Assembly: GCA_021810725.1 (NCBI GenBank)
Contig: JAJZIE010000003.1
Location: forward strand, 1 to 38,200
Source: Bacillota bacterium
GTDB lineage: Bacteria > Bacillota > Sulfobacillia > JAJZYS01 > JAJYTV01
DNA: 38,200 nt
Direction of reading: 5' to 3'
The notes beneath the pieces are model-generated. The model saw only the letters and a list, made by a program, of their open reading frames with translations. It was not told the origin of the DNA and searched no databases. A program made the position numbers and the translations under genes. Shown piece by piece: positions 6,536 through 36,926 of this stretch; position 1 is the stretch's first letter; each line of letters begins with the position of its first letter.

Positions 6536-6696
6536 AGCAGACGGGCCACGGATCCGCCGAGCCAGCGTGTGCATGCATAACAAGGGCCAATCGGTCCATA
6601 GAACGCGGACCCTTTGCCCCGGTACCAAAGTGACCTGGAACACCTCCCGCCCATCCGCGAGCGACAACGCTTTAAGGAGCAGTGGGAGGTGCCTTT

Positions 6697-7185
6697 GTGC
6701 CTATGGGACCTTCTTTGGTGGACCCGCACGCGCATCAGGACATCCATGACGCCGCGCGGGCCGAGATGGAATTCGGCACGGAGATCCTGCTGATGTCCTT
6801 GCGCGGCCAGGACGCCGCCACGTCCGTGCGCCTCGCCTCGGAGCTCCTCTGCGCGTGGCGGGAGCGTGTGCTGACGCACGCGGACGCCGAGGAGAAGGAC
6901 GTCTTCCCGCAGGTGCTCGCGGCGTCACCCGAGCTGGCGTCCGAGGTGGCCGCGCTCGTGCGGGACCACGATCTCATGCGGCTCCTCGTCGACGAGACCG
7001 AGCAGGGACTCGCCCGCGAGGGTTCGGTGACGGGGGCCGCGCTTGGGCGCCTGCAGGCACTCCTGCACATCCAGCGTCTGCACGCCCTCTACGAGGAGCA
7101 GACCTTCCTGCCTCAGGTTTCCGACGTGCTGGCTCAGGCGAAGACACCTTCCGAGGGGGCGGCTGAACATTGGCCAAACGCGTGA
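6697..7185 (+). CDS. Hemerythrin (HHE)-domain protein
   Basis: HADAEEKDVFP, RDHDLMRLL, HIQRLHALYEEQTFLP His/Glu pattern; GTG 6697 sits 7 nt after GGGAGG; overlaps narG start. Confidence 0.75.
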   Translation: MPMGPSLVDPHAHQDIHDAARAEMEFGTEILLMSLRGQDAATSVRLASELLCAWRERVLTHADAEEKDVFPQVLAASPELASEVAALVRDHDLMRLLVDETEQGLAREGSVTGAALGRLQALLHIQRLHALYEEQTFLPQVSDVLAQAKTPSEGAAEHWPNA

Positions 7186-10100
7186 ACGCACTAGGTAACG
7201 CACTCACCTACCTGCGCCGCGGTCCAGGCCTGAACGGGGGCTGGAGCGAGGAGAGCCCGCGCGGGCGACAGTGGGAGCGGCTCTACCGGGACCGCTGGCA
7301 GCACGACAAGGTGGTGCGCTCGACGCACGGCGTCAACTGCACCGGCTCCTGCAGCTGGAAGATCCACGTCAAGGATGGCGTGATCACCTGGGAGACGCAG
7401 CAGACCGACTACCCGTCGCTCGGTCCCGACACCCCGGAGTACGAACCGCGCGGCTGCCCGCGCGGGGCAAGCTTCTCCTGGTACGAGTACAGCCCCTTGC
7501 GCATCCGCTACCCCTACGTGCGCGGCAGCCTCATCACCGCCTGGCGGGAGGCGATCGCCGAGACCAAGGATCCTGTCGCTGCCTGGCGTCTCCTCACAGC
7601 GAGCCCCGAGCGCCGGGCGGCGTATCGGTCCCAGCGTGGCAAGGGCGGCTTCGTGCGGGCCAGCTGGGAGGAGATCTCCGAGCTGATCGCGGCCGCCACC
7701 CTCGAGACGGTGCGCCACTACGGACCGGACCGCGTCATCGGCTTCACGCCGATCCCGGCGATGTCGATGGTCAGCTACGCCGCCGGCACGCGTTTTCTCT
7801 CGCTGATCGGCGGCACGATCCTCAGCTTCTACGACTGGTACGCGGACCTGCCGATCGCGTCGCCCCAGATCTGGGGCGAGCAGACCGACGTGCCCGAGAG
7901 CGCGGACTGGTTCAACGCGGAGTACATGATCGTCTGGGGCACGAACCTGCCGATGACGCGCACCCCGGATGCCCACTTCATGGTGGAGGCGCGCTACAAG
8001 GGCACGCGCGTCGCCGCCGTCAGCCCGGACTACGCCGAGTACGTCAAGTTCTCGGATCTCTGGCTGCCGGCCAAGGCCGGCACGGACGCGGCCCTCGCCA
8101 TGGCGATGATGCACGTCATCCTGAAGGAGTTCTACGTCGACCGCCAAGTGCCGTACTTCCAGGACTACGCCCGCCGCTTCACAGACCTTCCCTTCCTGGT
8201 GCGGCTCGTCGAGCGGGACGGCAGGCACTACGCGGACCGCTTCCTGCGCCTGTCGGACCTCGGCGAGGGCGGTGACGCGGACGCCTGGAAGACCGTCGTC
8301 TGGGACGAGGCGGAGAACGCGCCCGCCTGCCCGAACGGGAGCCTCGGCTACCGCTGGGACGGGTCGGGGCGCTGGAACCTGAAGCTCGAAGGGGACGGCG
8401 GCGCGCCGATCTCCCCCGCCCTCACGTTCCTCGGCGGCGAGGACCGCACAGTCGAGCTCGACTTCCCCTACTTCGGCGGCGGCAAGGGCGAGACTCTTCG
8501 CCGCCACGTCCCGGTGCGGCGGATCGAGGGCAGCGCGGGACCGCAGATCGTCACGACCGTCTTCGACCTGCTCCTCGCGAGCGCCGGGGTGGGCAGAGGC
8601 CTACCCGGAGACTATCCCCAGGACTACGACGACCCGCGCCCCTACACGCCGGCCTGGCAGGAGGCGATCACGGGCGTTGACCGCAAACTCGCGATCCAGG
8701 TGGCGCGCGAGTTCGCCGAAGTGGCCGAGAAGACCCGCGGCCGCGCCATGATCGCGATGGGCGCCGGCATCAACCACTGGTACCACAGCGACGTGATCTA
8801 CCGCGCCATTGTCGGCCTTGTCCTCTTGACGGGCTGCGAAGGGGTCAACGGCGGCGGCTGGGCGCATTACGTCGGCCAGGAGAAGGTGCGGCCGCTCGAG
8901 GGCTGGGCCACGCTCGCCTTCGCAGGCGACTGGGTGCCCGCCGCGCGGCAGCAGAACGGCACCTCCTTCTTCTACTTCGCCACCGACCAGTTCCGCTACG
9001 AGGACATGGGCACGGACGAGCTCACCTGGCCCGGTGGCGGCACGTTCTCCTCGATGCACCCGGCGGACGTCAACGCGCTCGCGGCTCGGCTCGGTTGGCT
9101 GCCGTCCTATCCGCAGTTCCGCGAGAACTCGCTCGAGACGGCGAGGAAGGCGAGGGCGGATAGCCAGGACGACCTCGGGGCGGTGCGCTCCGTCGCGCGG
9201 CGGCTCCAGGATCGGGACCTCGAGCTGTCGGTCGACGCGCCGGATCTCGAGGAGAACTTCCCGCGCGTCTTCTTCCTCTGGCGGGCGAACCTCCTCACCT
9301 CAAGCGGCAAGGGGCACGAGTACTTCCTCAGGCACCTCCTCGGCGCCGACGGCCACGTGCTCTCCGGCGAGGAGGGCAAGCGCCGTCCGCAGACGGTGGC
9401 CTGCGAGGGCGAGGCACCGCGCGGCAAGCTGGACCTCCTTGTCGACATCGACTTCCGCATGACGGGCAGCGGCCTCTACGCCGATATCGTGCTGCCCGCC
9501 GCCACCTGGTACGAGAAGCACGACATCTCGAGCACCGACATGCATCCCTTCGTCCATCCCTTCAATCCGGCGATCTCGCCTCCCTGGGAGACGAGGAGCG
9601 ACTGGGACACCTTCCGCACGATCGCGCGCAGGTTCTCGGAACTCGCCAGGGACCACCTGCCCGCGCAGGAGGACCTTGTGATGGCGCCTCTCCTGCACGA
9701 CACGCCGCAGGAGACCGCCCAGCCTTTCGGCGAGGTGCGGGACTGGCGCAAGGGCGAGGCGGAGGCGGTGCCGGGGAGGACGATGCCGCGCTTCCTCTTC
9801 GTCCAGCGCGACTACCCGCACGTCTACGAGCAGATGACGACGCTCGGCCCGCGCGCGGAAGGCCAGATCGTGCAGAAGGGCATCACCATCCCGACGCAGC
9901 ACGCCTACGCTGCGCTCCGCCAGGAGCTCGGAGCGAGCCGACGCGAAGGGCCCGGCAAGGGCCGGCCGCGGCTCGAGACGGCCGAGCAGGCCGCGAACGC
10001 GATCCTCAGGCTCTCCGGCGCGACGAACGGTCACCAGGCGGTGGCGGCCTGGAAGGCGCTCGAGCCGGCGACGGGCCTGCGGCTCGAGGACGTCGCGAAG

Positions 10101-10844
10101 GGCCGTGAGGAGGACGTCTACACCGTCAAGGACCTGACCGTCCAGCCGCGGCTCGCGATCGCCGCACCGGTCTGGAGCGGGCTCGAGGCCCACGGCCGGC
10201 GCTACGCGCCCTTCACGGCCAACGTCGAGCTCGAGATCCCGTGGCGCACGCTCACTGGGCGCCAGCACTTCTATGTCGACCACGCGATGATGCTCGACTT
10301 CGGCGAGGGGCTGCCCCTTTATAGGCCGCCGCTCACCGCGCACCCGTTCCCGGCTGGCCAGGCGCCCCCCGGGGAGGGCAGGCAGCTCACGCTGCGCTAC
10401 CTGACGCCGCACGGCAAGTGGGGCATCCACTCCACCTACACCGACACCCTGACGATGCTCACCCTGTTCCGCGGCGGCCCGACGATCTGGCTGAGCCCGC
10501 AGGACGCCGAGGCGCTCGCGGTCAAGGACAACGACTGGCTCGAGGCCCTGAACCGCAACGGCGCCGTCGCGGCCCGGGCGGTGGTGAGCCACCGCATCCC
10601 CGAGGGCGTCGCCATCATGTACCACGCCCAGGACCGCACGATCGCCGTGCCCGGCACGAAGGCGACCCAGGACCGCGGCGGCGCGCACAACAGCCTGACG
10701 CGCGTTCTCCCGAAGCCGACCCACATGATCGGCGGCTACGCGCAACTCAGCTACGGCTTCAACTACTACGGCCCGACAGGACACCAGCGGGACGAGATGA
10801 CCGTGGTGCGACGCCTTGGGGAGGTGGACTGGCTTGCGGATTAA
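7170..10844 (+). CDS. narG: Respiratory nitrate reductase, alpha subunit
   Basis: RWQHDKVVRSTHGVNCTGSCSWKIHVKDG (HxxxCxxxC), EPRGCPRGASFSWY, IPAMSMVSYAAGTRFLSLIGGTILSFYDWYADLP (Asp Mo ligand region), WGEQTDVPESADW, TPHGKWGIHSTYTDTL; TTG start. Confidence 0.97.
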   Translation: MAKRVNALGNALTYLRRGPGLNGGWSEESPRGRQWERLYRDRWQHDKVVRSTHGVNCTGSCSWKIHVKDGVITWETQQTDYPSLGPDTPEYEPRGCPRGASFSWYEYSPLRIRYPYVRGSLITAWREAIAETKDPVAAWRLLTASPERRAAYRSQRGKGGFVRASWEEISELIAAATLETVRHYGPDRVIGFTPIPAMSMVSYAAGTRFLSLIGGTILSFYDWYADLPIASPQIWGEQTDVPESADWFNAEYMIVWGTNLPMTRTPDAHFMVEARYKGTRVAAVSPDYAEYVKFSDLWLPAKAGTDAALAMAMMHVILKEFYVDRQVPYFQDYARRFTDLPFLVRLVERDGRHYADRFLRLSDLGEGGDADAWKTVVWDEAENAPACPNGSLGYRWDGSGRWNLKLEGDGGAPISPALTFLGGEDRTVELDFPYFGGGKGETLRRHVPVRRIEGSAGPQIVTTVFDLLLASAGVGRGLPGDYPQDYDDPRPYTPAWQEAITGVDRKLAIQVAREFAEVAEKTRGRAMIAMGAGINHWYHSDVIYRAIVGLVLLTGCEGVNGGGWAHYVGQEKVRPLEGWATLAFAGDWVPAARQQNGTSFFYFATDQFRYEDMGTDELTWPGGGTFSSMHPADVNALAARLGWLPSYPQFRENSLETARKARADSQDDLGAVRSVARRLQDRDLELSVDAPDLEENFPRVFFLWRANLLTSSGKGHEYFLRHLLGADGHVLSGEEGKRRPQTVACEGEAPRGKLDLLVDIDFRMTGSGLYADIVLPAATWYEKHDISSTDMHPFVHPFNPAISPPWETRSDWDTFRTIARRFSELARDHLPAQEDLVMAPLLHDTPQETAQPFGEVRDWRKGEAEAVPGRTMPRFLFVQRDYPHVYEQMTTLGPRAEGQIVQKGITIPTQHAYAALRQELGASRREGPGKGRPRLETAEQAANAILRLSGATNGHQAVAAWKALEPATGLRLEDVAKGREEDVYTVKDLTVQPRLAIAAPVWSGLEAHGRRYAPFTANVELEIPWRTLTGRQHFYVDHAMMLDFGEGLPLYRPPLTAHPFPAGQAPPGEGRQLTLRYLTPHGKWGIHSTYTDTLTMLTLFRGGPTIWLSPQDAEALAVKDNDWLEALNRNGAVAARAVVSHRIPEGVAIMYHAQDRTIAVPGTKATQDRGGAHNSLTRVLPKPTHMIGGYAQLSYGFNYYGPTGHQRDEMTVVRRLGEVDWLAD

Positions 10845-12351
10845 GGCGCAGGTGGCCATGGTGATGAACCTCGACAAGTGCATCGGCTGCCACACCTGCA
10901 GCGTGACCTGCAAGAACACGTGGACGAACCGGTCCGGGGCCGAGTACATGTGGTTCAACAACGTCGAGACGAAGCCCGGCGTCGGCTATCCGAAGCAGTG
11001 GGAGAACCAGGAGCGCTACCGCGGCGGCTGGCAGCTTCGAGACGGCAAGCTCAGCTTGCGCGCCGGCGGGCCGATCGAGAAGCTCGTCCACATCTTCCAC
11101 AACCCCGACCTGCCCGAGATCGACGACTACTACGAGCCCTGGACCTACGACTACGAGAACCTGATCGACAGCCCTGAGCGCCGCTACCAGCCGGTGGCGA
11201 GGCCGCGCTCGCAGCTGACCGGCGAGCCGATGGATCAGCCTTCCTGGGGCCCGAACTGGGAGGACGACCTCGCCGGAGCGCCGGAGCACGCCCTCTCCGA
11301 CCCGAACCTGAGGGGACTCGAGGAGCACATCGCCTTCGAGTATGAGCAGGCCTTCATGTTCTACCTGCCGCGCATCTGCGAGCACTGCCTGAACCCCGCC
11401 TGCGTCGCCGCCTGTCCCTCCGGGGCGATGTACAAGCGCGAGGAGGACGGCATCGTTCTCGTGGACCAGGACGCCTGCCGCGGCTGGCGCTTCTGCGTCA
11501 GCGCCTGTCCATACAAGAAGGTCTACTTCAACTGGCAGACCCACAAGGCGGAGAAGTGCACCTTCTGCTACCCGCGCATCGAGGCCGGCCTGCCGACGGT
11601 GTGCTCCGAGACCTGCGTCGGCCGCATCCGTTACCTCGGCGTCGTCTTCTACGACGCGGACCGCGTCAAGGCGGCGGCGTCGGTGGCGGACGAGAAGGAG
11701 CTCCTCGCGGCGCAACTCTCCGTCTTCCTCGATCCGAGCGACCCGGAAGTCATCCGGGCGGCGCATGAGGCGGGCATCACCGACGCCTGGATCGAGGCGG
11801 CGCAGCGCTCGCCGGTCTACAAGATGGCGGTGGAGTGGGGCATCGCGCTGCCGCTGCACCCGGAGTACCGCACGTTGCCGATGGTCTGGTACGTGCCGCC
11901 GCTGAGCCCGATCATGAGCCACGTCGAGGAGACGCGTCCCGCCACCACGGCGGACGAGATCCTTCCCGCGATCGAGGCGATGCGCATTCCGATGGAGTAC
12001 CTCGCGAACCTGCTCTCGGCCGGTGACGTGGACGTCATCCGCACGGTGCTGAGGCGCCTCGCGACGATGCGCGCCTTCCTGCGCGGCCGGGCGCTCGGCC
12101 TGCCTGAGGACGGCCGGATGCTTGAGGCCGCGGGGCTCACCGCGCAGCAGGTGGAGGACATGATGCGGCTTCTCGGCATCGCGAAGTACGACGAGCGCTT
12201 CGTCATCCCGACGGCCCGCAGGGAGGGCGAGCGGGACCTTCAGGCCCTGCAGGGCGGCTGCAGCCTCGACGACGTGCTGCCGCCCGAGGGCGCCTTCGCG
12301 AAGGGACGCCAGCCGATCGAACTGCGCGCCTGGACGGGGGAGCCGCGATGA
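10834..12351 (+). CDS. narH: Respiratory nitrate reductase, beta subunit
   Basis: LDKCIGCHTCSVTCKNTWTNR, EHCLNPACVAACPSGAMYKREEDGIVLVDQDACRGWRFCVSACPYKK (Trp-substituted Cys motif typical of NarH); TTG start after GGGGAGGTGG. Confidence 0.96.
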   Translation: MRIKAQVAMVMNLDKCIGCHTCSVTCKNTWTNRSGAEYMWFNNVETKPGVGYPKQWENQERYRGGWQLRDGKLSLRAGGPIEKLVHIFHNPDLPEIDDYYEPWTYDYENLIDSPERRYQPVARPRSQLTGEPMDQPSWGPNWEDDLAGAPEHALSDPNLRGLEEHIAFEYEQAFMFYLPRICEHCLNPACVAACPSGAMYKREEDGIVLVDQDACRGWRFCVSACPYKKVYFNWQTHKAEKCTFCYPRIEAGLPTVCSETCVGRIRYLGVVFYDADRVKAAASVADEKELLAAQLSVFLDPSDPEVIRAAHEAGITDAWIEAAQRSPVYKMAVEWGIALPLHPEYRTLPMVWYVPPLSPIMSHVEETRPATTADEILPAIEAMRIPMEYLANLLSAGDVDVIRTVLRRLATMRAFLRGRALGLPEDGRMLEAAGLTAQQVEDMMRLLGIAKYDERFVIPTARREGERDLQALQGGCSLDDVLPPEGAFAKGRQPIELRAWTGEPR

Positions 12352-12917
12352 GCGGGCGGACGCTGCGCAAGGTCGGCGCTCTGCTCCTCGGCTACCCGGA
12401 CCGGAACCGGTTCGGACTCGTGCTCTCCGCGCTCGACGACGTGGAGGATCCCGGCGCGCGGGACCTCCTGCGCCGCTTCCTCGAGGAGTCCCTCGCCTTG
12501 CCGGACGCGGAGCGCGAAGGGCGCTATGTCGCCACCTTCGACTTCCGCGAGGATCTCTCGCTCTATCTCACGTTTCAGGAGCTCGGAGACGCCCGGGACC
12601 GCGCGCCGCAGCTGCTGGCCCTGAAGCGGGAGATGCGCCATTGCGGCTTCCTCTGCCCGAAGGACGAGCTGCCGGACTACATCCCGCTGCTGCTCGAGTT
12701 CCTGGCGGAATGCCCGGACGGCTACGACGATCGGCCGCTTTCCTATCGCCTCGCGCGAGCCCTCGCGGGCATCGCGGAGCGCCTTGGGGAGGATCACCCG
12801 TACCTGCCGCTGCTGCGGGCGATCCTCACGGCCCTGCCGTCCGACGCCGCGGCTCAGGAGAAGCCCATGGGCGAAGCGGAAGACCTCGAACTGCCGTATC
12901 CCTTGCGCTACCTCTAG
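12348..12917 (+). CDS. narJ: Nitrate reductase assembly chaperone
   Basis: YVATFDFREDLSLYLTF..GD, LPDYIPLLLEFLAE; ATGA overlap with narH. Confidence 0.9.
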   Translation: MSGRTLRKVGALLLGYPDRNRFGLVLSALDDVEDPGARDLLRRFLEESLALPDAEREGRYVATFDFREDLSLYLTFQELGDARDRAPQLLALKREMRHCGFLCPKDELPDYIPLLLEFLAECPDGYDDRPLSYRLARALAGIAERLGEDHPYLPLLRAILTALPSDAAAQEKPMGEAEDLELPYPLRYL

Positions 12918-12935
12918 CCTTAGGGAGGTGATCCG

Positions 12936-13640
12936 TTGAGCGAATTCCTCTGGGTCGTCTACCCGTATCTCTGCCTGATGGTGCTGGTGGTGGGCATGCT
13001 CACCCGCTACAACTACGACCAGATCGGCTGGACGTCGAAGTCCAGCGAGATCCTGGAGAAGAGACTGCTCGGGCTGGGCAGCCCGCTCTTCCACTGGGGG
13101 ATCATCTTCGTCTTCCTCGGCCACGTCGCGGGTCTTCTCGTGCCGATCGAGGTCTACCAGGCCCTCGGCGTCTCGGAGCACCTCTACCACATGGGCGCGA
13201 TGGCCATGGGCGGCATCACCGGTCTCATGACCCTCGTCGGGCTCCTGCTGCTGCTTTGGCGCCGCCTCAGCGTCCGCCGCGTCAAAAGCCACACATCCAC
13301 GGGAGACTGGGTTGCGCTCGGCTTCCTCATCGCCACGGTGGCGCTCGGACTGTCGATGACGCTCGTCTACAACGTCAGCCACGTCGCCTACGAATACCGC
13401 ACGACGGTCGGGCCGTGGATCCGTGGCGTCATCCTGCTGCATCCGCAGGCGGCCCTGATGGCCCACGTGCCGCTCGTGCTGCAGCTGCACATCCTGACGG
13501 CGCTCGCGCTCTTCGCGGTTTCGCCGTTCACGCGGCTCGTCCACATCTTCAGCCTGCCGCTCGCGTACCTGAGGCGCAGGCCGATCCAGTACCGACGGCG
13601 CACGCCCGCCGTGCCCTGTGAACCGGCTCCGCGAGATTGA
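12936..13640 (+). CDS. narI: Respiratory nitrate reductase, gamma subunit (cytochrome b)
   Basis: Five TM-type hydrophobic segments, SPLFHWGIIFVFLGHVAGLLVP, HIFSLPLAYLRRRPIQYRRR; TTG start after GGGAGG. Confidence 0.93.
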   Translation: MSEFLWVVYPYLCLMVLVVGMLTRYNYDQIGWTSKSSEILEKRLLGLGSPLFHWGIIFVFLGHVAGLLVPIEVYQALGVSEHLYHMGAMAMGGITGLMTLVGLLLLLWRRLSVRRVKSHTSTGDWVALGFLIATVALGLSMTLVYNVSHVAYEYRTTVGPWIRGVILLHPQAALMAHVPLVLQLHILTALALFAVSPFTRLVHIFSLPLAYLRRRPIQYRRRTPAVPCEPAPRD

Positions 13641-13970: not shown

Positions 13971-15038
13971 CTGGCAGAAGCCCGGAAGGCCCCGCGTAGA
14001 GCTCTTGACGGCCTCTATCCGGGCTACTTCGCGTATGTGATGGCGACCGGCATCGTCTCGACCGCGGCCGGTCTCTTCCGGCTGCGGGACTTCTCCCTCG
14101 TCCTGCTGGCGGCGGCGACCGTGGGCTACCTCGTGCTCATAGGGCTCTACGCCCTGCGCTTCGTCACGGCGGCCGCCGCGGTGCGCGAGGATGCCCGCTC
14201 GCCCGGCAGGGCGTTCGGCTTCTTCACCTTCGTCGCCGCGTCGAACGTGCTCTCGGCGCGCTACGCGGCGGCGGGCGACCTTCGCATCGCCGCGGGCCTC
14301 GCTCTCGTCGGCGCGGTCTCCTGGGTCGTGCTCACCTACACCATCCCGGTCGGGCTGATGCTGGGGAGCTCCGATCGCCCCCTTGGAACGAGCGTCAACG
14401 CTTCCTGGCTGATCTGGGTGGTGGCGACGCAGTCGGTCTCGACGGCGGCGTCCGTGCTGTCGTCCGCGGGCCTGGACCGTGCCCTGCTCGGCTTCCTGGC
14501 GGCGGTCTTTTGGGGCATCGGCTCGCTGCTCTACCTCATCCTGATCACGATCGTCACCGCGCGCATGCTGCTCGCCGCGATGCCCGCGACCGAGATGACC
14601 CCGCCCTACTGGATCAACATGGGCGCCACGGCGATCACCGTCCTCGCGGGGGTGCGCCTCCTTGCGACCCACCTGCCCGGGCGCCTGCACGAACTCGCGC
14701 CGGTCGTGACGGGCATCTCGTTCATGTTCTGGGCCTTCGGCAGCTTCTGGATCCCGGCGGTGGTGCTGTTCGGCGTCTGGCGCTATGGCCGCGGCGGGCA
14801 TCCCGTCGTCTACGAGCCGGCGCTCTGGAGCATCGTCTTCCCGATGGGCATGTACGTCACCGCGACCGACCTCCTCGGACATGTGGCGAGACTCCCATGG
14901 CTGCCTCCGCTCGCGGGCGGAGCGAGCTGGGGCGCGTATGCGGCATGGGTGGCGGTCTTTCTTTTCATGCTCTACGACCTGCTCGACCGGCGTGGCCCGA
15001 CCGCCGCGCCGGCGGCATCCCCGGGCCAAGACCTTTAA
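13971..15038 (+). CDS. TDT/SLAC1-TehA family transporter
   Basis: Multi-TM protein with YPGYFAYVMATGIVSTAAGL near N-terminus. Reading frame extends upstream of the listed GTG (14037) to CTG 13971, which lies 7 nt after AAGGAGG. Confidence 0.75.
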   Translation: MAEARKAPRRALDGLYPGYFAYVMATGIVSTAAGLFRLRDFSLVLLAAATVGYLVLIGLYALRFVTAAAAVREDARSPGRAFGFFTFVAASNVLSARYAAAGDLRIAAGLALVGAVSWVVLTYTIPVGLMLGSSDRPLGTSVNASWLIWVVATQSVSTAASVLSSAGLDRALLGFLAAVFWGIGSLLYLILITIVTARMLLAAMPATEMTPPYWINMGATAITVLAGVRLLATHLPGRLHELAPVVTGISFMFWAFGSFWIPAVVLFGVWRYGRGGHPVVYEPALWSIVFPMGMYVTATDLLGHVARLPWLPPLAGGASWGAYAAWVAVFLFMLYDLLDRRGPTAAPAASPGQDL

Positions 15039-15157: not shown

Positions 15158-16333
15158 ATGGCCATCGATGTCGCGGGCGACGCCGAGGTGCAGATGCTCA
15201 GGGAGGTCGCGCACGAGTTCGCCTTGCGCACCCTGCGTCCGGCGGGGCAGGAGGCGGACGAGACCGGCGAAACGCCCTGGCAGGCCGTGCGGGCGGCAGG
15301 CGAGCTCGGACTCATGGGCGCGAACGTGCCACAGGCCTACGGCGGTCCGGGGCTCAAAGCCACGACGCTGGCGGCCGTGATGGAGGAGCTCGGCTGGGGC
15401 AACTTCGGCATCACCGCGACGATCGGCGCCGCGTCGCTCGTCGCGGCGGCTCTGCTCATCGCCGGCAGCGAGGAGCAGAAGGGACGGTACCTGCCACGGC
15501 TTTGCAGCTCCGAGAGCCCGCTCGTCGGGGCACTGGCGCTAACGGAGCCGGAATCGGGGTCGGAGGCGGAGATTGAGCTCGAGGGTCAGGCGCAGACCCT
15601 GCGCACGCGCGCCGAGCGCACGACCGGCGGCTACCGGCTGCATGGCGCCAAGCGCTTCATCACGAACGGCGGCCCCGCCGACCTGACGCTGCTGCTCGCC
15701 GACATCGACGCCGATTCCGACGGCGGCTGGAGCCTCTTCCTGATCGAGCGGGGTCAGGAGGGTTTCCGGCCCGGCCGCCAGATCCCCACCATGGGCCTGC
15801 GCGGCTCCTACACCGGCGAGCTCTTCCTCGAGAATTGCGAGCTGCCTGAGCGGGCCGTTCTCGGCAAGCCCGGCGAGGGAATGGGGATCGTGCTCAAGGT
15901 GCTCGCGGTGGCGCGCACCATGATCGCCTCCGCGGCGGTCGGGCTGGCGAGAGCCGCCTACGAGACGGCCCTCGCCTACAGCGGCGAGCGGCGCCAGTTC
16001 GGCAGGCCGATCCGGGACCACCAACTCGTCGCGGGCCGACTGGCCACGATGCGGCTCGAGATCGACGCCGCCCGCCTTCTCGTGGCGAAGGCCGCCGAGG
16101 AGCTCGACGCCGGCCGGGACGCGGCGCTTGCCGCCGCGGAGGCGAAGCTCTTCGCGAGCGAGATGGCCGTCCGGGTGACGCAGGCCGCCCTGCAGATCCA
16201 CGGCGGGTACGGCTTCACGCGCGAATTGCCGCTCGAGATGTGGGTGCGCGACGCGATCATCAGCCGCATCTTCTTCGGCACGAGCGAGATGCAGCTCCTG
16301 GAGATCGCGCAGCACCTGGACCAGGGGAGATAG
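15158..16333 (+). CDS. Acyl-CoA dehydrogenase superfamily flavoprotein
   Basis: ALTEPESGSEAE, GAKRFITNGGPADL, GERRQFGRPIRDHQLV, QIHGGYGFTRELPLEMWVRDA, GTSEMQ; listed 607-aa ORF begins too far upstream, ATG at 15158. Confidence 0.88.
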   Translation: MAIDVAGDAEVQMLREVAHEFALRTLRPAGQEADETGETPWQAVRAAGELGLMGANVPQAYGGPGLKATTLAAVMEELGWGNFGITATIGAASLVAAALLIAGSEEQKGRYLPRLCSSESPLVGALALTEPESGSEAEIELEGQAQTLRTRAERTTGGYRLHGAKRFITNGGPADLTLLLADIDADSDGGWSLFLIERGQEGFRPGRQIPTMGLRGSYTGELFLENCELPERAVLGKPGEGMGIVLKVLAVARTMIASAAVGLARAAYETALAYSGERRQFGRPIRDHQLVAGRLATMRLEIDAARLLVAKAAEELDAGRDAALAAAEAKLFASEMAVRVTQAALQIHGGYGFTRELPLEMWVRDAIISRIFFGTSEMQLLEIAQHLDQGR

Positions 16334-16364
16334 AGACCGGGGACCATCAAGGAGGGTGAGCATC

Positions 16365-16823
16365 ATGGATCGGAACACCGAGGCCATAGCGAAGATCCGC
16401 CGGCACCACGCGGCGCTCCTCGAGGGGCTGCGCGAGCCTTCGGAAGTCCTGCTCGCGGAGGTGTCCCAGGGCAGGAGGGGTGAAGAGGCCCATCGCGAGT
16501 TGGCGGCCTTCCTCGCGGAGGAGATCCTGCCGCACGCCGAGGCCGAGGAGGCCACGATCTACAAGCGCGGCCGCGAGGTGGCGGAGCTCGGGCCACTGCT
16601 CGAGGCGATGATCGCGGAGCACGGGCGGCTGCGACGGCTCGCGTCGGATCTCAAGGACGAGACCGACCCCGCGCGGGCCGCCGCGATCGGCTACACGATC
16701 ACGGAGCTCTTCTCGATCCATGCCGACAAGGAGAACGATCTCTTGTTGCCGCGGCTCGCCGAGGAGCCGGACGTCAGCGTGCACGACCTGCTCGGCGACA
16801 TGCACGAGCGGCTCGAGGGCTGA
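16365..16823 (+). CDS. Hemerythrin (HHE)-domain protein
   Basis: RRHHAALLEGL, ILPHAEAEEATIYKRG, IAEHGRLRRL, IHADKENDLLLPRL; AAGGAGG 9 nt before ATG. Confidence 0.82.
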   Translation: MDRNTEAIAKIRRHHAALLEGLREPSEVLLAEVSQGRRGEEAHRELAAFLAEEILPHAEAEEATIYKRGREVAELGPLLEAMIAEHGRLRRLASDLKDETDPARAAAIGYTITELFSIHADKENDLLLPRLAEEPDVSVHDLLGDMHERLEG

Positions 16824-16939: not shown

Positions 16940-17407
16940 GTGGAGCCGAGGATCGAGTATGGCAAGGTGGCCCCTGGCGCCATGCAGGCGATGCAGGGCC
17001 TCGAGGCGTATGTGCGGGGCAGCGGTTTGCCCCAGGGCCTCTTGGAACTTGTCCGCACCAGGGCGTCGCAGCTCAATCGCTGCGCCTATTGCCTCGACAT
17101 GCACACGAAGGACGCCAGGGCAAACGGGGAGACCGAACAGCGCCTCTACGCCCTCAGCGCCTGGCGCGAGACCCCGTTCTATTCGGACCGCGAGCGGGCG
17201 GCGCTCGCCTGGACGGAAGCGCTTACCCTCCTGCCCGGGGACCCGGTGTCCGACGAACTCTACGCGGAAGTGGCGGCGCAGTTCAGCGAGCGCGAGATCG
17301 TCGACCTGACGCTCGCGATCGTCGCGATCAACGGCTGGAACCGGCTCGCGGTCGGGCTGCGCAGCGTGCCTGGCACCTACCAGCCCCGTCCGCGGCCAGA
17401 GGACTGA
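16940..17407 (+). CDS. Carboxymuconolactone decarboxylase / AhpD-like family protein
   Basis: RTRASQLNRCAYCLDMHTKDAR (CxxC..H active-site motif), FSEREIVDLTLAIVAINGWNRLAVG. Confidence 0.85.
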   Translation: MEPRIEYGKVAPGAMQAMQGLEAYVRGSGLPQGLLELVRTRASQLNRCAYCLDMHTKDARANGETEQRLYALSAWRETPFYSDRERAALAWTEALTLLPGDPVSDELYAEVAAQFSEREIVDLTLAIVAINGWNRLAVGLRSVPGTYQPRPRPED

Positions 17408-17428: not shown

Positions 17429-17869
17429 ATGCCGGAAGACCTTAGCTTCGAGATCGACGCTCGCTGGTCGGGCACCGGACGCGACGGGCGCGGCACGATC
17501 CGCACGGGCGGGCTCGAGATCGCCTATTCGGCGCCGGCCAGCATGGGTGGCCAGGGCAGCGGCACGAGCCCGGAGGAGCTGCTGATGTCCGCCGTTACAG
17601 CCTGCTACAGCGGGACACTCTTCCGCGTCCTGCAGCAGAGGGAACTGCCCGTGCGGGAGATCGAGATCAGGACGACCGGCCTCGTCACCGGGTACCCCAG
17701 GGAGACGCGCTTTCAAAAGATCGCCGTGCATCCCAAGGTCCTTGGCGGCGACCCTGGGCGCCTCGGCGACTACCGGGCGGCGGCCGAGACCGCCCGCGAT
17801 CGCTGCTTCATCGGTGGCACGGTGCGAGACAGCCTCGAGTATGTGGTCGGGGAGGTTTCGGTCTCGTAG
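17429..17869 (+). CDS. OsmC/Ohr family protein
   Basis: SGTSPEELLMSAVTACYSGTLFRVL and second Cys in ARDRCFIGGTVRDSLEY. Confidence 0.8.
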   Translation: MPEDLSFEIDARWSGTGRDGRGTIRTGGLEIAYSAPASMGGQGSGTSPEELLMSAVTACYSGTLFRVLQQRELPVREIEIRTTGLVTGYPRETRFQKIAVHPKVLGGDPGRLGDYRAAAETARDRCFIGGTVRDSLEYVVGEVSVS

Positions 17870-17880
17870 CAGGCGCTCCG

Positions 17881-18981
17881 CTAGGATCCCGCCGGGGGCA
17901 GCCGCACCCACCGAAGGCCATGGGGCGTCACGTAGGTGAGAAGATTGCCGTAGAGCTCCGGCATCTGGCCGGGGATGCGGTAGAGGCGGTCCGCCCGGAT
18001 GTCGAGCAGCTCCGGGCTGCTGGCCCAGAAGGCGAGATAGCCGTCGCCATAGCTCGGGTTCGAGGGGAAGACGCCCGGCGGGGTGATGCGGATCATGGTC
18101 TTGCCTTCCCTGAGGTAGAGGCCCTCGTCGACGCCGAAGTCCTCGGTGAAGGCGAGAAGGCCGGCACCAGGCACCATGGAGGTCAGGATGCCGGCGGTGC
18201 GCCAGAGGGTCCGGGGGTGACCGCCCTGGATCGGCACTTCCACGATGTCGCCCTGCACCTTGTCCTCGGGGTCGGCGGGCTTGAGCGCCAGGTAGACGCT
18301 TCGGCTGTCCGTGCCGATCGCGATCACGTCGAGGGACGAGGCGGAACTCTGCTCCCGGAAGAGGTCGCGGCAGTTGCCCGACGGCAGATGGCAGGCGACG
18401 ACGCTTGTCAGGTCGTTGTCGCCGACACTGCGCGTGCTGAGGAAGATGAGCTCGTGACCCTCGAAGTGGAACGAGGTGTCGATGCTGCGCAGATCGCCGG
18501 GGGGCAACTGGAGCGCGGCCGGCTTTCCACCGCCGACGGGCCATAGCTCGACGGGCGCGTTGCGCGGTCCGGACTCGGGCCCCACCTGGTAGGCGATGCC
18601 GTCCTGGCCCAGGGCCGACGCCGTCGCGATGTCGCGCTTCCTGCCTGGCGTGATCGGCACCACCAGACGCTCCCGGCCCGTCCCGGGATCGCCGAGGTAG
18701 AGTCCGTCGGCGAGACCACCCCTGGTCGGCTCGGTGGACAGGAGAACGCCCTGTCCGGGACTGTAGCCCGACGCCGGCATGGTCACGCCGGGGAAGGTGC
18801 CCGTCGGCCACGCCGCCGGCAGGTCGACTGGCTTCAGCGCGCGGTAGAGGTCGATGACGCCTGGGGGCGGCTCAGGCCCTGCCGATGGGATGAACGAAGG
18901 TTCGGGGTATGTCTTGCAGCCTGCGAGCACGAGGCCCGCGGCCGCGATCAAGGCGATGCGTGGCAGGAGGCTTTTCTGCAC
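17881..18981 (-). CDS. Lipoprotein with probable beta-propeller domain
   Basis: Signal peptide with lipobox LLPRIALIAAAGLVLAGCKTY; repeated propeller-like strands; GTG 18981 after GAGGAGG on the minus strand (listed ORF starts upstream). Confidence 0.65.
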   Translation of the reverse strand: MQKSLLPRIALIAAAGLVLAGCKTYPEPSFIPSAGPEPPPGVIDLYRALKPVDLPAAWPTGTFPGVTMPASGYSPGQGVLLSTEPTRGGLADGLYLGDPGTGRERLVVPITPGRKRDIATASALGQDGIAYQVGPESGPRNAPVELWPVGGGKPAALQLPPGDLRSIDTSFHFEGHELIFLSTRSVGDNDLTSVVACHLPSGNCRDLFREQSSASSLDVIAIGTDSRSVYLALKPADPEDKVQGDIVEVPIQGGHPRTLWRTAGILTSMVPGAGLLAFTEDFGVDEGLYLREGKTMIRITPPGVFPSNPSYGDGYLAFWASSPELLDIRADRLYRIPGQMPELYGNLLTYVTPHGLRWVRLPPAGS

Positions 18982-19228
18982 AGGATCCACCTCCTCTGCA
19001 TGTGCAGCGTACCATGCGATACTTTGCGCGCATGCGTCCTGCATCACACAAAGGATCGTCACGGCTCACGGCCTGATTGAGGCACGCGCACCGCGGCCTT
19101 TGGTTTGCGTAAGGGTGACCCTGGTCCCGCCGAAGATTTGGACACACCCCCGACCTTTCGTCCCATGGCAGGCATGCCCGGCGTGCACTGTTCGCCGAGC
19201 TTTCGCATCCTGTATCGTCGCATTGGGG

Positions 19229-21076: not shown

Positions 21077-21277
21077 CTAGGCCTTGTTCTCGCTGGGCGG
21101 CTCCTGCTTGGCCTCCACCGCTAGGTCGTGCTGGACCTCATTCATGGACTTGCGGAATTCCTTGATCGTCTTGCCGATGCCCGCGCCGATTTCGGGCAGG
21201 CGCTTCGGCCCGAAAAGCAGCAGGGCGATGACAAGGATGATGACCAAATGCACCGGTGTGAGTAGATCCAAAATCAC
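21077..21277 (-). CDS. tatA: Sec-independent protein translocase TatA
   Basis: LLTPVHLVIILVIALLLFGPKRLPEIGAGIGKTIKEFRKSMNE; GTG start 21277 on minus strand. Confidence 0.9.
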   Translation of the reverse strand: MILDLLTPVHLVIILVIALLLFGPKRLPEIGAGIGKTIKEFRKSMNEVQHDLAVEAKQEPPSENKA

Positions 21278-21343
21278 GCCTCCCTTGCGTCGGGGGCTTC
21301 TCCGACACCGCCAGTCTAGCAGAGGCGCTTTGCAAGGCAGCCG

Positions 21344-21436
21344 TCCGTAAGGGTGCAGCGCCACGCGTAAGGTTGGACCATTCGACAAAGTAGAAACGCC
21401 GCGAAGCGGCCATGGGATACTGAACGCCCTTACGGA
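21344..21436. promoter_or_regulatory. Inverted repeat pair in tatA/molybdoenzyme divergent promoter region
   Basis: TCCGTAAGGG (21344-21353) and its exact reverse complement CCCTTACGGA (21427-21436), with a third CGTAAGG at 21366-21372. Confidence 0.4.
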
Positions 21437-21561
21437 TGCCATGTGCGGTCTGACGACGCCGGTCCACTTTCGGACAATAAAGGCGGAGCCAACGCCGGAT
21501 GAGGACACGGGCACACCTTTGGAAGAATGTAGCCCGTAGACATGTCGGGAGGTGGCTCACA

Positions 21562-24036
21562 ATGCCGAAAATCCGTCGGCGGACATTCCTCAAGGGAGTC
21601 GCGGGCGGCGTCGGCCTTGCCGCACTAAGCACCCCGAGCTTCCGCCTGCTGGAGGCCGCAGCCGCGGGCAAGAGCAAGCCGCAGGGGAGTCGGGACCAGA
21701 CGTTCCGCACCGGCCACTCGAACAACTGCGACGGCTCGTGCGGACATCTCGTGCACGTGCGGGATGGACGTGTACGCTTGATCGAGGGTGCCCCCTGGGA
21801 CGACACGACCGTATCGGGAGCGCAGGCGCCGGACTACCACGCTCGCATCTGCCTGCGTGGCATCTCGCAGATCCAGAACACCTATAGCCCCGACCGCATC
21901 CGCTATCCCTACAAGCGGATCGGTCCGCGCGGCTCCGGCCGCTGGCAGCGCATCACCTGGGGAGAAGCCACCTCGACCATCGCCCAGAAGTTCCAGGAGA
22001 TCCAGCAGAAGTACGGCAAGACGGCGATCTGGATCCCGCCGTACACGGGTTCGCTCAGTGTTCTCGAGGGCGTGATCGGAGCGGGCTACCGCTTCGCGAG
22101 CGTCATCGGCGCGTCCGGTGGGGACTTCGAAGGAGACAACGAGGGCGACTCCGCGACTCCGGCCGGCTTCAACTACGTCCTGGTCGACCCGACGAACCCC
22201 GCGAACGGCGGCGGCTTTCTCGACGGTCATGAATTCACGGACTTCATGAACTCCAAGGTTATTTTCCTCTGGGCCAACAACCTCGCGGAGACGTCGATCC
22301 CCGACTGGCGCACGGTGATGGCCGCCCGCAAGAACGGCACGAAAGTGGTCGCGCTGGACCCGCGCTTCACGCCGACCTCGGCCTCCGCCGACGTTTGGGT
22401 GCCGATCCGACCGGGTACGGACCCTGCGCTAGTGGACGGCATGATCCGCGACATCCTGCAACGGAACATGATCAACGAGGACTATCTGAGGTCCTACAGC
22501 GTCGCTCCGTTCCTGGTGCGCGAGGACACGAAGCTCTTCCTGAGGGAGAAGGACGTGACGCCGGGCGGATCCGACGCGTACATGGTCATGGACAAGGACG
22601 GAAGCCTGAAGGCGGTCACGGACCCGAACCTCAAGCAGGCGCGGCTCTACGCCGCCACGACCGTGGGCAAGATGCGTGTGCGCACGGCTTTGCAGGCGCT
22701 ACGCGACGCCATGGAACCCTACACGCCCGAGTACGTCGCGAAGATCACCGACGTCAAGCCCGAGATGGTGACACAGCTCGCCGAGCTGTACGCCCAGGCG
22801 AACCCCGCGGCGATCAAGTGCGGCTTCGGCCTGTCGCACTGGTACCGGGGTGACCTCACCTACCAAGCGATGCTCACGATGGCGGCCCTGACGGGCAACA
22901 TCGGCGTGCACGGCGGCGGCGTGACCACATACAGCGGCGCCCTGCTCACCACCGCTTACGACCTCGGCGACTGGCTCTTCCCAGATGGCAAGAGCTACAC
23001 CTACCTACCGCCGATGCAAGCCTGCGACGCAATGCTCAAGAACGACCCCTATCCCGTGCGGGCCGCCTGGTTCGTCGTGGACAACTACGCCCAGCAGATG
23101 TCGGACAAGAACAAGGTGCGCAAAGCGCTCGAATCCCTCGACTTCCTCGTTGTCTCGGACTATGTCATGTCGGCGACGGCCGACTTGGCGGACATTGTCC
23201 TGCCGAGCTGCACCTACCTCGAGAAGACCGACCTCCTTGGCAGCGGCAATTACTATCTGCAGTACATGCCCAAGGTGATCGAACCGCTTTGGGAGTCGAA
23301 GTCAGACCTCGACCAGTTCACTATGGTCGCCCGCAAGATGGGCTACGGCAAGTACTTCGACAAGACCCCCGACGAGTACATCACCCAGATCCTGCGCATC
23401 GGCCAGAAGGATGCGGACGCGACGGTGGCCGGGCTGACGTGGGACCAACTGAAGAACGGAGCTCCGCATCTCAACACCGCAACGGTGCCCTACGTGCCGT
23501 TCTTCAACAAGCAGTTCCCGACGAAGTCCGGGCGGATCGAGTTCTACGTCGAGCTGCTGGTGCCGTACGACCAGGAGCTCTGCGGCTACAAGGAACCGAT
23601 CGAAGCGACGCCCTCGAATCCGCTCTACAAGAAGTACCCGCTCGTCTTCCTCTCCACCCACACGCGCTTCCGCACGCACTCGCAGTACACGCACCTGCCC
23701 TGGCTTGACGAGATCAACAACCAGGGCCAGGGCTTCCTGGAGATCAACCCGCGGGACGCCAGGGCGCGTGGCATCGCTGACGGCGCGGTGGTCCGGGTCT
23801 TCAACGACCGTGGCGAGATGAAGGTGCACGCGCGGTACACCGAAGGCATCAAGCCCGGCGTCGTCAACTGCTACCAGGGCGGTTGGGACACGGTCCGCGT
23901 CAAGCAGTACGTCGAGGGCCATCCGAACAACCTGACGCACCAGATTGCGAACCCGGCCCAGTCCATCATCCCGAACTTCCGCTCGAACGCGGCGTACTAC
24001 GACTGCCTCTGCCAAGTCGAACCGGTGGGAGTGTGA
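21562..24036 (+). CDS. Tat-exported DMSO-reductase-family molybdopterin oxidoreductase, substrate unassigned
   Basis: Twin-arginine leader MPKIRRRTFLKGVAGGVGLAAL; HSNNCDGSCGHLVHVRDGRV FeS motif; CLRGISQIQNTYSPDRIRYPYKRIGPRGSGRWQRITWGEA; C-terminal THTRFRTHSQYTHLPWLDEI; RBS GGGAGGTGG. Confidence 0.92.
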   Translation: MPKIRRRTFLKGVAGGVGLAALSTPSFRLLEAAAAGKSKPQGSRDQTFRTGHSNNCDGSCGHLVHVRDGRVRLIEGAPWDDTTVSGAQAPDYHARICLRGISQIQNTYSPDRIRYPYKRIGPRGSGRWQRITWGEATSTIAQKFQEIQQKYGKTAIWIPPYTGSLSVLEGVIGAGYRFASVIGASGGDFEGDNEGDSATPAGFNYVLVDPTNPANGGGFLDGHEFTDFMNSKVIFLWANNLAETSIPDWRTVMAARKNGTKVVALDPRFTPTSASADVWVPIRPGTDPALVDGMIRDILQRNMINEDYLRSYSVAPFLVREDTKLFLREKDVTPGGSDAYMVMDKDGSLKAVTDPNLKQARLYAATTVGKMRVRTALQALRDAMEPYTPEYVAKITDVKPEMVTQLAELYAQANPAAIKCGFGLSHWYRGDLTYQAMLTMAALTGNIGVHGGGVTTYSGALLTTAYDLGDWLFPDGKSYTYLPPMQACDAMLKNDPYPVRAAWFVVDNYAQQMSDKNKVRKALESLDFLVVSDYVMSATADLADIVLPSCTYLEKTDLLGSGNYYLQYMPKVIEPLWESKSDLDQFTMVARKMGYGKYFDKTPDEYITQILRIGQKDADATVAGLTWDQLKNGAPHLNTATVPYVPFFNKQFPTKSGRIEFYVELLVPYDQELCGYKEPIEATPSNPLYKKYPLVFLSTHTRFRTHSQYTHLPWLDEINNQGQGFLEINPRDARARGIADGAVVRVFNDRGEMKVHARYTEGIKPGVVNCYQGGWDTVRVKQYVEGHPNNLTHQIANPAQSIIPNFRSNAAYYDCLCQVEPVGV

Positions 24037-24042
24037 CGAACG

Positions 24043-24750
24043 ATGGCCCGCTGGGGAATGGTGATTGACCAGAGCAAGTGCGTCGGCTGCTGGACATGCG
24101 CTGTCGGCTGCAAGGCCATCAACGACGAGCCGCTCGGGTACTGGTGGAACCGCGTGCTTACGACCGAGCCCGACAGCTCGGCGCAGGTCGCCGCGCCCGC
24201 CACGCCGGCGGTGGACGTCCCGCACGGCACGTACCCGAACCTCGAACTCGCCTATCTGCCGCTGGCGTGCCAGCACTGCAACGACGCGCCCTGCGAGAAG
24301 GTCTGTCCGGTCGGGGCCACCTTCCGGCGCGACGACGGGCTGATCCTGATCGACTACGAGCGCTGCATCGGCTGTCGCTACTGTGTCGCAGCCTGCCCCT
24401 ACGGTGTACGCATCTTCAACTGGGGTCCCGCGAAGCGCGAGCCCGACTTCGTGATCGGCTACGGCGAGGAGTACCGGACGGGCGGACGGCTCGTGTTCGA
24501 GCCGGTACGGCCTGTGGGGATCGTGGAGAAGTGCACGCTCTGCGTCGAGCGTGTCGACGCGAACGAGCAGCCGTTCTGCGTGGACGTCTGCCCTGTCGGG
24601 GCACGTGTCTTCGGCGACCTCGACGACCCGAAGAGCGAGGTCTCGGTGCTGGTCAACGACGAAGGAGCGGAACAGCTTCTCGCGGAGCTCGGCACGAACC
24701 CTAACGTCTATTACCTGCCGTCCTCGCATCCGAGCAAGGTATCCGACTGA
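24043..24750 (+). CDS. DmsB/NrfC-like 4x[4Fe-4S] electron-transfer subunit
   Basis: KCVGCWTCAVGCKAIN, CQHCNDAPCEKVCPVGAT, CIGCRYCVAACPYGVRIFNW, KCTLCVERVDANEQPFCVDVCPVGAR. Confidence 0.92.
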   Translation: MARWGMVIDQSKCVGCWTCAVGCKAINDEPLGYWWNRVLTTEPDSSAQVAAPATPAVDVPHGTYPNLELAYLPLACQHCNDAPCEKVCPVGATFRRDDGLILIDYERCIGCRYCVAACPYGVRIFNWGPAKREPDFVIGYGEEYRTGGRLVFEPVRPVGIVEKCTLCVERVDANEQPFCVDVCPVGARVFGDLDDPKSEVSVLVNDEGAEQLLAELGTNPNVYYLPSSHPSKVSD

Positions 24751-24769
24751 AGGAAGGGGTTGGCGAACC

Positions 24770-25990
24770 ATGGTCAACAGCAGCGTCCGAACAGACCTGC
24801 CTAGGGCACCCGGCCTAGCGCGCAGCCCCTGGACCTGGCTTCTCGGCGTCCTGGTGCTGCTCGGTCTCGTCGCCTGGGTCTACGAGCTCGGGCACGGGCT
24901 CGCGGCTACAGGCATGCGCGACGTGGTCTCCTGGGGCATGTACATCTTCACCTTCGCCTACCTCGTCGGCCTCTCCGCGGGCGGACTGATCGTCGCCTCC
25001 TCGTCGGAGGTCTTCCACATCGAGGCCCTCAGGCCGCTCGCGCGCCTGGGCGTCCTCACGGCCGCGGTCTTCTCCGCCGCCGCGGGGCTGATGATCATCC
25101 CGGACCTCGGCCAGCCGATCCGGGTGCTGAACCTGTTCATCTTCCCGAACTGGACGTCGCCACTCGTGTGGGACGTCACGATCATCACGATCTACTTCCT
25201 CTTCTCCGTCCTGGAACTCTGGGTGATGGTGCGCCGCCCCGAGAAGAAGAAGACGCTCACGACGCTTGCGTTCATCGGCCTGCCGCTCGCCGTGCTGCTC
25301 CATTCGATCACAGCCATCATCTTCGGCCTGCAGATGTCGAGGCCATGGTGGAACACGGCGCTCATGGCGCCCATCTTCGTGGCGTCCGCGATCCTCTCCG
25401 GCACCGCGCTGATCGTGCTGATCGCCTGGATCCTGCAGCGCTACAACAACCTGCGCATCCCTGCGGCCACCTGGCGCTGGCTTGCCGGGCTCATGGTCAT
25501 GGCGCTGTTCGTCGACCTCTTCTTCGTGGCCTCGGACTACGTGACCATCGCCTGGGACAACATCCCGAAGGACCGGCAGGTACTGGACCTCATCCTGCCC
25601 GGTGGCCCCTACCAGCTCACCTTCTGGTTCGAGTGGGTCCTCGGCGGCGTGATCCCGTTTGTCATCCTCGCCTCCTCGAAGTTGCGCGCCAAGGCCAGCA
25701 ACCTGGCGCTCGCCGCCGCGCTGATCCTGATGGGCGTCTACGCCTTCCGCATCGAGCTCGTCATTCCGGCGTTCGTCAACCCGCTGATCCAGTTGCCACC
25801 GGGCACCTCGCTCGGAGCCGTCTCGACGAGCGGATCCTTCCAGCTCGTCGGGCACTACAGCCCGACCTGGGTGGAGTATCTGATCACCGTCGGCCTCTTC
25901 GCGCTGACCGCTCTGGCGATCGCGATAGGGTATCGCCGCCTGCATCTCGGACGCACCATCCAGGAGGCGGCGGAGCATGTCGCGGACTGA
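24770..25990 (+). CDS. nrfD: NrfD/PsrC-type membrane anchor subunit
   Basis: Multi-TM protein; SWGMYIFTFAYLVGLSAGGLIVASSSEVF, LGQPIRVLNLFIFPNWTSPLVWDVTIITIYFLFSVLELW; ATG 24770. Confidence 0.88.
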   Translation: MVNSSVRTDLPRAPGLARSPWTWLLGVLVLLGLVAWVYELGHGLAATGMRDVVSWGMYIFTFAYLVGLSAGGLIVASSSEVFHIEALRPLARLGVLTAAVFSAAAGLMIIPDLGQPIRVLNLFIFPNWTSPLVWDVTIITIYFLFSVLELWVMVRRPEKKKTLTTLAFIGLPLAVLLHSITAIIFGLQMSRPWWNTALMAPIFVASAILSGTALIVLIAWILQRYNNLRIPAATWRWLAGLMVMALFVDLFFVASDYVTIAWDNIPKDRQVLDLILPGGPYQLTFWFEWVLGGVIPFVILASSKLRAKASNLALAAALILMGVYAFRIELVIPAFVNPLIQLPPGTSLGAVSTSGSFQLVGHYSPTWVEYLITVGLFALTALAIAIGYRRLHLGRTIQEAAEHVAD

Positions 25991-36278: not shown

Positions 36279-36926
36279 ATGAACCAGGAACAGATGCTGT
36301 CCACTGGGCAGGTCGCGGAGCGTCTCGGCATGACCGTGCGCACTGTCTACCGTTGGGAAAAGGCGGGGCGGTTGCATCCTGTGCGGCTGCCGACGGGACA
36401 GCGGAGATTCCCGGCGAGCGAAGTTGACGCGCTCCTTCACGCAAAGGCACGGGCGGTGCCGCGTTGCGTCGTCTACGCTCGCGTCTCCAGCGGGAAGCAG
36501 GCGGAGGCTGGCAACCTCGATCGGCAGCGCGAACGATTGGTCGCGGCGGCAGCAGAGCGACGCTACAAACTGGTCGCAACCGTCACGGAACGGGCCTCGG
36601 GATTGAACGAGAAGCGCAAGGGTCTGCACCGCCTGTTCCACATGGCCGCTGCCGACGAGATCGACGTGGTGCTGGTGGAGTTCAAGGATCGCCTGGCGCG
36701 TTTCGGCTTCGCCTATGTGGTCGAAGCGCTGGCGGCACACGGCGTCCGCGTCGAGGTGCTGGACGGACCGGTCGCAACCGACGCGACCCAGGAACTTGTG
36801 CAGGACATGCTCGCGATCGTCGCCGTGTTCGCCGCAAGGCTCTACGGGGGACGGCCACAGCGATTCCGCCACAAAGTCCAGGAGGCGGCGCAGGAACTGG
36901 ATGACGAGGTGATGGGCGATGCCTGA
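36279..36926 (+). CDS. tnpA: IS607-family serine recombinase (TnpA)
   Basis: N-term MerR-like HTH STGQVAERLGMTVRTVYRWEKAGRLHPVRLPTGQRRF; catalytic VVYARVSSGKQ; FKDRLARFGFAYV. Confidence 0.93.
   Translation: MNQEQMLSTGQVAERLGMTVRTVYRWEKAGRLHPVRLPTGQRRFPASEVDALLHAKARAVPRCVVYARVSSGKQAEAGNLDRQRERLVAAAAERRYKLVATVTERASGLNEKRKGLHRLFHMAAADEIDVVLVEFKDRLARFGFAYVVEALAAHGVRVEVLDGPVATDATQELVQDMLAIVAVFAARLYGGRPQRFRHKVQEAAQELDDEVMGDA

Follow-up and report, generated by a model that had tools for sequence, protein, structure and literature searches.

An acyl-CoA dehydrogenase-fold protein with phenylalanine in place of the catalytic glutamate, probably repurposed within one uncultured bacterial family

The window, i.e. 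the whole 38,200-nucleotide stretch of DNA analysed here, encodes a 391-residue protein with the fold of the acyl-CoA dehydrogenases (ACADs) that lacks glutamate at both positions where these enzymes are known to carry their catalytic base, one of the two being occupied by a phenylalanine. Across one uncultured family of bacteria the catalytic acid has given way to a bulky aromatic residue, which indicates that this is probably a repurposed enzyme and not a fat-burning one. Taken as a whole, the reading that we lean towards, if only slightly, is of a repurposed ACAD-fold flavoprotein which binds FAD, works by base-free chemistry or at least carries out no classical dehydrogenation, and acts in a stress setting. 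The features of the gene itself are as follows.

15158–16333, forward strand: ACAD-fold FAD protein of family A, 391 residues, without either catalytic Glu (Pfam, AlphaFold model and PDB folds)
15566–15589, forward strand: clade-specific insertion of about 8 residues (approximately 137–144) after LTEPESGSE in the middle domain (alignment; a low-confidence loop in the model)
15911–15913, forward strand: codon of Ala252, at the position of the catalytic Glu of IVD and LCAD (alignments)
16271–16276, forward strand: codons of Phe372-Phe373, at the positions of Tyr375-Glu376 of MCAD (alignments and DNA pattern)

The reading frame opens with an ATG at 15158, contains no internal stop and closes with a stop codon ending at 16333. 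All three Pfam domains of the superfamily, Acyl-CoA_dh_N (PF02771), Acyl-CoA_dh_M (PF02770) and Acyl-CoA_dh_1 (PF00441), score well above their cut-offs, giving the N-terminal helical, middle beta and C-terminal helical arrangement of the ACADs. The AlphaFold model, built from 16 related sequences and containing neither FAD nor substrate, has a mean pLDDT of 88 and a pTM of 0.89, and the solved folds nearest to it are canonical ACADs, with TM values of about 0.9. Sequence comparison with the PDB likewise gives ordinary short- and medium-chain enzymes as the best matches (1ws9, 5lnx, 4n5f, 2dvl and 4m9a). The protein has the fold, length, three Pfam domains and flavin contacts of the Thermus enzymes 1ws9, 1ukw and 2dvl and of Bacillus subtilis MmgC (5lnx), at 38–42% identity; it differs from them in having Phe for the catalytic Glu, Phe for the preceding Tyr (Phe372), an 8-residue insertion in the middle domain, Thr211 for Lys and Glu382 for Val. 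None of the NCBIfam equivalog cut-offs was reached, the top score being to acryloyl-CoA reductase, at 284 of the 640 bits needed.

The first of the two catalytic positions lies in the segment RDAIISRIFFGTSEMQ (residues 364–379), where Phe373, encoded by 16274–16276, aligns with the Glu of the YEGT or GEGT motif of the best PDB homologues, the position of Glu376 in MCAD. The second lies in AVARTMIA (residues 250–257), in which Ala252 directly precedes the conserved Arg253 and stands where IVD has Glu254 and MCAD Thr255. The protein thus has neither the YEGT Glu of the MCAD/SCAD type nor the helix G Glu of the isovaleryl- and long-chain type, and both replacements, Phe373 and Ala252, recur in all eight orthologues, which confirms the original prediction that Glu is missing at both canonical sites. 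In a comparison set of 31 other ACADs, mostly from the same class, Glu occupies the 376 position in 30, while L020, the only exception, carries the isovaleryl-type Glu; loss of both residues was therefore seen in none of the 31, in contrast to the 15 members of family A and its paralogous family B, none of which has either Glu.

A Glu placed elsewhere in the active site would have rescued an ordinary mechanism, and alignment columns suggest that there is none: a comparison of every column across families A and B and 27 canonical ACADs revealed no displaced catalytic Glu on the pocket helices, and helix G, loop JK and the pocket helix have gained no conserved acid. E377 of GTSE was considered as a substitute base and rejected, as ordinary YEGTSE enzymes carry the same Glu. 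Clade-specific acids do occur (E136, E138, D321, E328 and E382), and together with a general resemblance to enzymes of the SCAD/MCAD type (identity to 1ws9 is 42%), the acryloyl-CoA reductase model as the best, though far sub-threshold, NCBIfam score, and the possession of ETF by the hosts, they could be taken to indicate a dehydrogenase or reductase relying on a different pocket acid, or one whose substrate is so acidic that weak assistance suffices. We consider this rather improbable, since all five acids align off helix G, loop JK and the substrate-pocket helix, E136 and E138 fall within the low-confidence loop of the model, and an aromatic side chain at position 376 should crowd the substrate C-alpha.

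The protein does appear to have kept its cofactor site. Thr129, Thr169, Arg278, Phe281 and Gly350 are invariant in the eight members of family A, and these align with the residues that contact the flavin in MCAD, namely Thr136, Thr168, Arg281, Phe284 and Gly353; the MCAD Gln349 position is Gln in six of the eight. With the flavin-contact residues largely retained, the sequence predicts that FAD is probably still bound. The expectation that the rest of the fold signature would be intact holds for the three domains and for most flavin contacts, but not for the 8-residue insertion, Lys to Thr211 or Tyr to Phe372. Several of the deviations are common to families A and B and absent from canonical enzymes: the insertion of about eight residues after the TEP motif, Thr211 in place of a nearly invariant Lys, Glu382 for Val, Met361 for Arg or Lys, and usually Glu328 for Met.

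Family A comprises eight members, including that of the window, with one copy each in the window's genome (G000), G001 and G003–G008; the other seven share 61–86% identity with that of the window, and IFFGT, Phe372-Phe373 and Ala252-Arg253 are kept in all eight. Family B is paralogous, at about 45–50% identity, and reads Ala-Tyr-Gly at the motif, with Gly at the second position. The maximum-likelihood tree unites the two in a single clade (support 100/100), which branches from within the YEGT enzymes of the same class and has a stem of 0.92 changes per site; the fork joining the G007 copy to the remainder of family A is weakly supported (67/11). These sequences are most simply explained if the base was lost a single time, with a burst of change, and a duplication came afterwards: in an ancestor with a normal YEGT active site an aromatic residue would have replaced the base, and the later duplication would have produced families A, with Phe, and B, with Tyr.

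One or both families are present in nine of the ten genomes of a single uncultured bacterial family, and a search of the class and phylum found neither family outside it, the remaining matches at E ≤ 1e-80 (L052, L053, L060 and L061) being canonical. No further ACAD with an FFGT motif was found in 399 Bacillota genomes; the sole extra match to the pattern, L074, does not look like one.

Loss of catalytic residues could also be a sign of a decaying gene without function, an impression strengthened by the lower identity of family A (82–86%) than of the neighbouring narG (90–92%) between the same genomes. Decay is nonetheless very improbable, as the reading frame is open in every full-length copy, the FF pair and most FAD-site residues are invariant down to 61% overall identity, and dN/dS within family A lies well below 1, at 0.16–0.36 (Nei-Gojobori), which indicates a protein under constraint.

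Considering whether the protein acts alone or as part of a pair, heteromeric ACADs provide the obvious precedent. In the steroid enzymes ChsE1-E2, ChsE4-E5 and the fused CasC, a Glu-less subunit or domain helps to bind FAD (PMC8399759), and these resemble the present case in having a Glu-less member and, in one genome, an adjacent pair: in L013 (G007) the family B gene directly follows the family A gene in tandem. Family A might accordingly be a non-catalytic partner in a heterotetramer with B, or with a Glu-containing ACAD, in which one subunit merely completes the FAD site. Seven of the nine genomes with either family have both, and family B has Val or Ala in place of the Thr168-type residue (the T169 position), so that it may not bind FAD normally, and in five of seven members has also lost the Phe284-type residue, yet it retains Arg at the cross-subunit Arg281 position. 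Unlike the steroid enzymes, however, A and B both lack the base, so a pair of the two would still be without one, and they are usually unlinked, family B in the window's genus lying after clpX and far from A. Only A is present in G008 and only B in G002; no adjacent or fused Glu-bearing ACAD was found beside A in any locus read, the L013 partner itself being Glu-less. On these grounds a partner-subunit role is unlikely. In several genomes the family B gene comes immediately after clpP-clpX (G000:C8 at L002:549-1694; L014–L018), with a gene for a MoxR-type ATPase or proC following it.

The surroundings of the family A gene in the window contain the following neighbours.

7170–13640, forward strand: narGHJI nitrate reductase genes, counted here as neighbours only (narG, narH and narI above NCBIfam cut-offs; narJ by position and size only)
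14037–15038, forward strand: SLAC1/TDT-family channel, between narI and the ACAD gene (Pfam PF03595)
16356–16823, forward strand: hemerythrin-domain protein, 22 bp beyond the end of the ACAD gene (Pfam PF01814; neighbour conserved in L007, L008, L009 and L010)
16940–17407, forward strand: AhpD/CMD-family protein with CxxC (Pfam PF02627 and NCBIfam ahpD_dom above cut-off; conserved in L007, L008 and L010)
17429–17869, forward strand: OsmC-family peroxidase-like protein, the neighbour with the widest linkage (Pfam PF02566)

The distance from narI to the ACAD gene is 1.5 kb, and the original prediction placed the latter in a nar operon, a description that now carries little weight. The gene order of the window, nar included, is repeated in L007, L008 and, up to the end of its contig, L009, and these three nearest relatives are the only others in which nar adjoins the ACAD gene. 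L010 keeps the ACAD, hemerythrin, AhpD and OsmC genes but has heme-copper oxidase genes upstream in place of nar; no nar genes were found within 8 kb on either side of the L010 and L013 orthologues, and neither nar nor the OsmC module was seen in L012 or L013, the upstream flanks of L011 and L012 being short. The OsmC gene lies downstream of the ACAD gene in L007, L008 and L010 and directly upstream of it in L011 and L021, the last containing only the first 110 residues of the ACAD. Across L007–L013 and L021, therefore, linkage to OsmC is the wider of the two and occurs in two gene orders, while linkage to nar is restricted to close relatives. The phylogeny that had been proposed to look for a nar-linked clade sharing the substitution was run, and members with and without adjacent nar genes have the substitution, which is thus not tied to nar. 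No sigma-70-type promoters or intrinsic terminators turned up in scans for them.

It had also been suggested, from the nitrate reductase genes, that the protein might be a nitroalkane oxidase or an N-oxide or N-hydroxylating enzyme tied to nitrate respiration. Such enzymes do exist within the ACAD superfamily and nar is adjacent in four genomes, but nitroalkane oxidase needs an acid, Asp, at the position of MCAD Glu376, which here is Phe373, and the nar linkage is not conserved; both points disfavour the idea. Similarity to the flavin monooxygenases of the superfamily is marginal (36 bits to DszC, against a cut-off of 850), acyl-CoA dehydrogenases come first in both sequence and fold comparisons, and no signature of either enzyme type was found, making this proposal the least credible of those considered. 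A role in complex I assembly, by analogy with human ACAD9 and with the nuo genes of the window in mind, was rejected because nuo proteins were unmatched beside any orthologue, several of the contigs being short.

Other features of these loci were recorded in passing. Hemerythrin-domain genes at 6682–7185 and 16356–16823 bracket the narGHJI block, and a conserved 393-residue protein with no Pfam match (17881–19062, reverse strand) lies beside OsmC in L007, L010 and L011 (partial). A second molybdopterin-type oxidoreductase set, with large, 4Fe-4S and membrane subunits, follows a moaA-like gene at 21499–25990, with a TatA-like ORF on the opposite strand to it at 21077–21514, and an ORF combining a MerR-like helix-turn-helix with a serine recombinase at 36279–36926 resembles the resolvase of IS607-type transposons. 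Downstream of the ACAD orthologue in L011, the gene at 2837–3394 matches the GRDB family of glycine/betaine reductases, but only marginally.

The OsmC, AhpD-like and hemerythrin neighbours would make peroxide or redox stress the likeliest setting for the protein, and weakly suggest a role there; the case is a weak one because the neighbouring genes differ among genomes, L012 and L013 lacking the OsmC module. A stress setting would have some precedent in the superfamily. The protein is too short, at 391 residues against about 540, to carry the extra C-terminal domain of AidB, and scores 42.5 bits (cut-off 545) with NF008594.0, which we take to be the AidB model. AidB, ACDH-11 and Bd2924, all longer proteins with that additional domain, have roles outside beta-oxidation, some of them in stress (PMC6851490, PMC3546729).

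There are also precedents for ACADs without the YEG Glu. Benzylmalonyl-CoA dehydrogenase (IaaF), 3-sulfinopropionyl-CoA desulfinase, the butyrobetainyl-CoA enzyme CaiA and pimeloyl types are all already known to lack it; loss of CO2 in place of proton removal has been proposed for IaaF, and the desulfinase releases sulfite (PMC8360864). IaaF shares with the window's protein the ACAD fold without the YEG-motif Glu (PMC8360864), but has a GGG motif and sits in the iaa operon, neither of which is found here, where the motif is FFG and the neighbours are nar and the OsmC module; moreover, the Gly residues of IaaF open up space which the Phe should fill. The desulfinase, also of ACAD fold, has an AGG motif (PMC8360864) in place of FFG, and its profile (NF042439.1) matches the window's protein at 232 bits, far below the cut-off of 600.

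With both Glu residues absent, classical abstraction of the alpha-proton cannot start, and by analogy with these enzymes the best reading of the repurposed flavoprotein is one of base-free chemistry or of a non-catalytic role. Family A proteins would still bind FAD and probably still form the usual tetramer, but would not perform an alpha,beta-dehydrogenation that begins with removal of the C-alpha proton. If catalytic, they may carry out a base-free reaction in which CO2 or SO2 is lost in place of H+, as in the known Glu-less enzymes, or alternatively a flavin oxidation or reduction of a small or activated ligand. The presence of ETF genes in all ten genomes of the host family may count against base-free chemistry, leaving room for an ETF-linked dehydrogenase, and an acid might reach into the pocket from elsewhere in the protein. 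The original suggestion of a repurposed flavoprotein thus fits the single loss of the base, the long stem, the purifying selection and the retained flavin contacts, while the nitrogen chemistry based on nar is disfavoured. A bolder proposal, which we regard as doubtful, is that the paralogous pair with Phe or Tyr for the catalytic Glu performs a flavin reaction undescribed in the superfamily, either singly or as an A-B heterotetramer, under peroxide or respiratory-acceptor stress.

Loss of the Glu is in itself nothing new in the superfamily, and the deviating motifs GGG, GAG, AGG, SGG and YGG all have Gly or Ala at its position (PMC8360864). What appears to be new, judged from alignments and motif searches in the genomes used here, including the 399 of Bacillota, is that a bulky aromatic residue stands in its place and is fixed in both sister families. 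Such a change differs in kind from the Gly and Ala variants. ACADs are routinely annotated from sequence as enzymes of fatty-acid oxidation, and members of this clade would be too, despite the textbook mechanism being unusable to them; the clade offers a defined, testable case of the very common ACAD fold turned to other uses.
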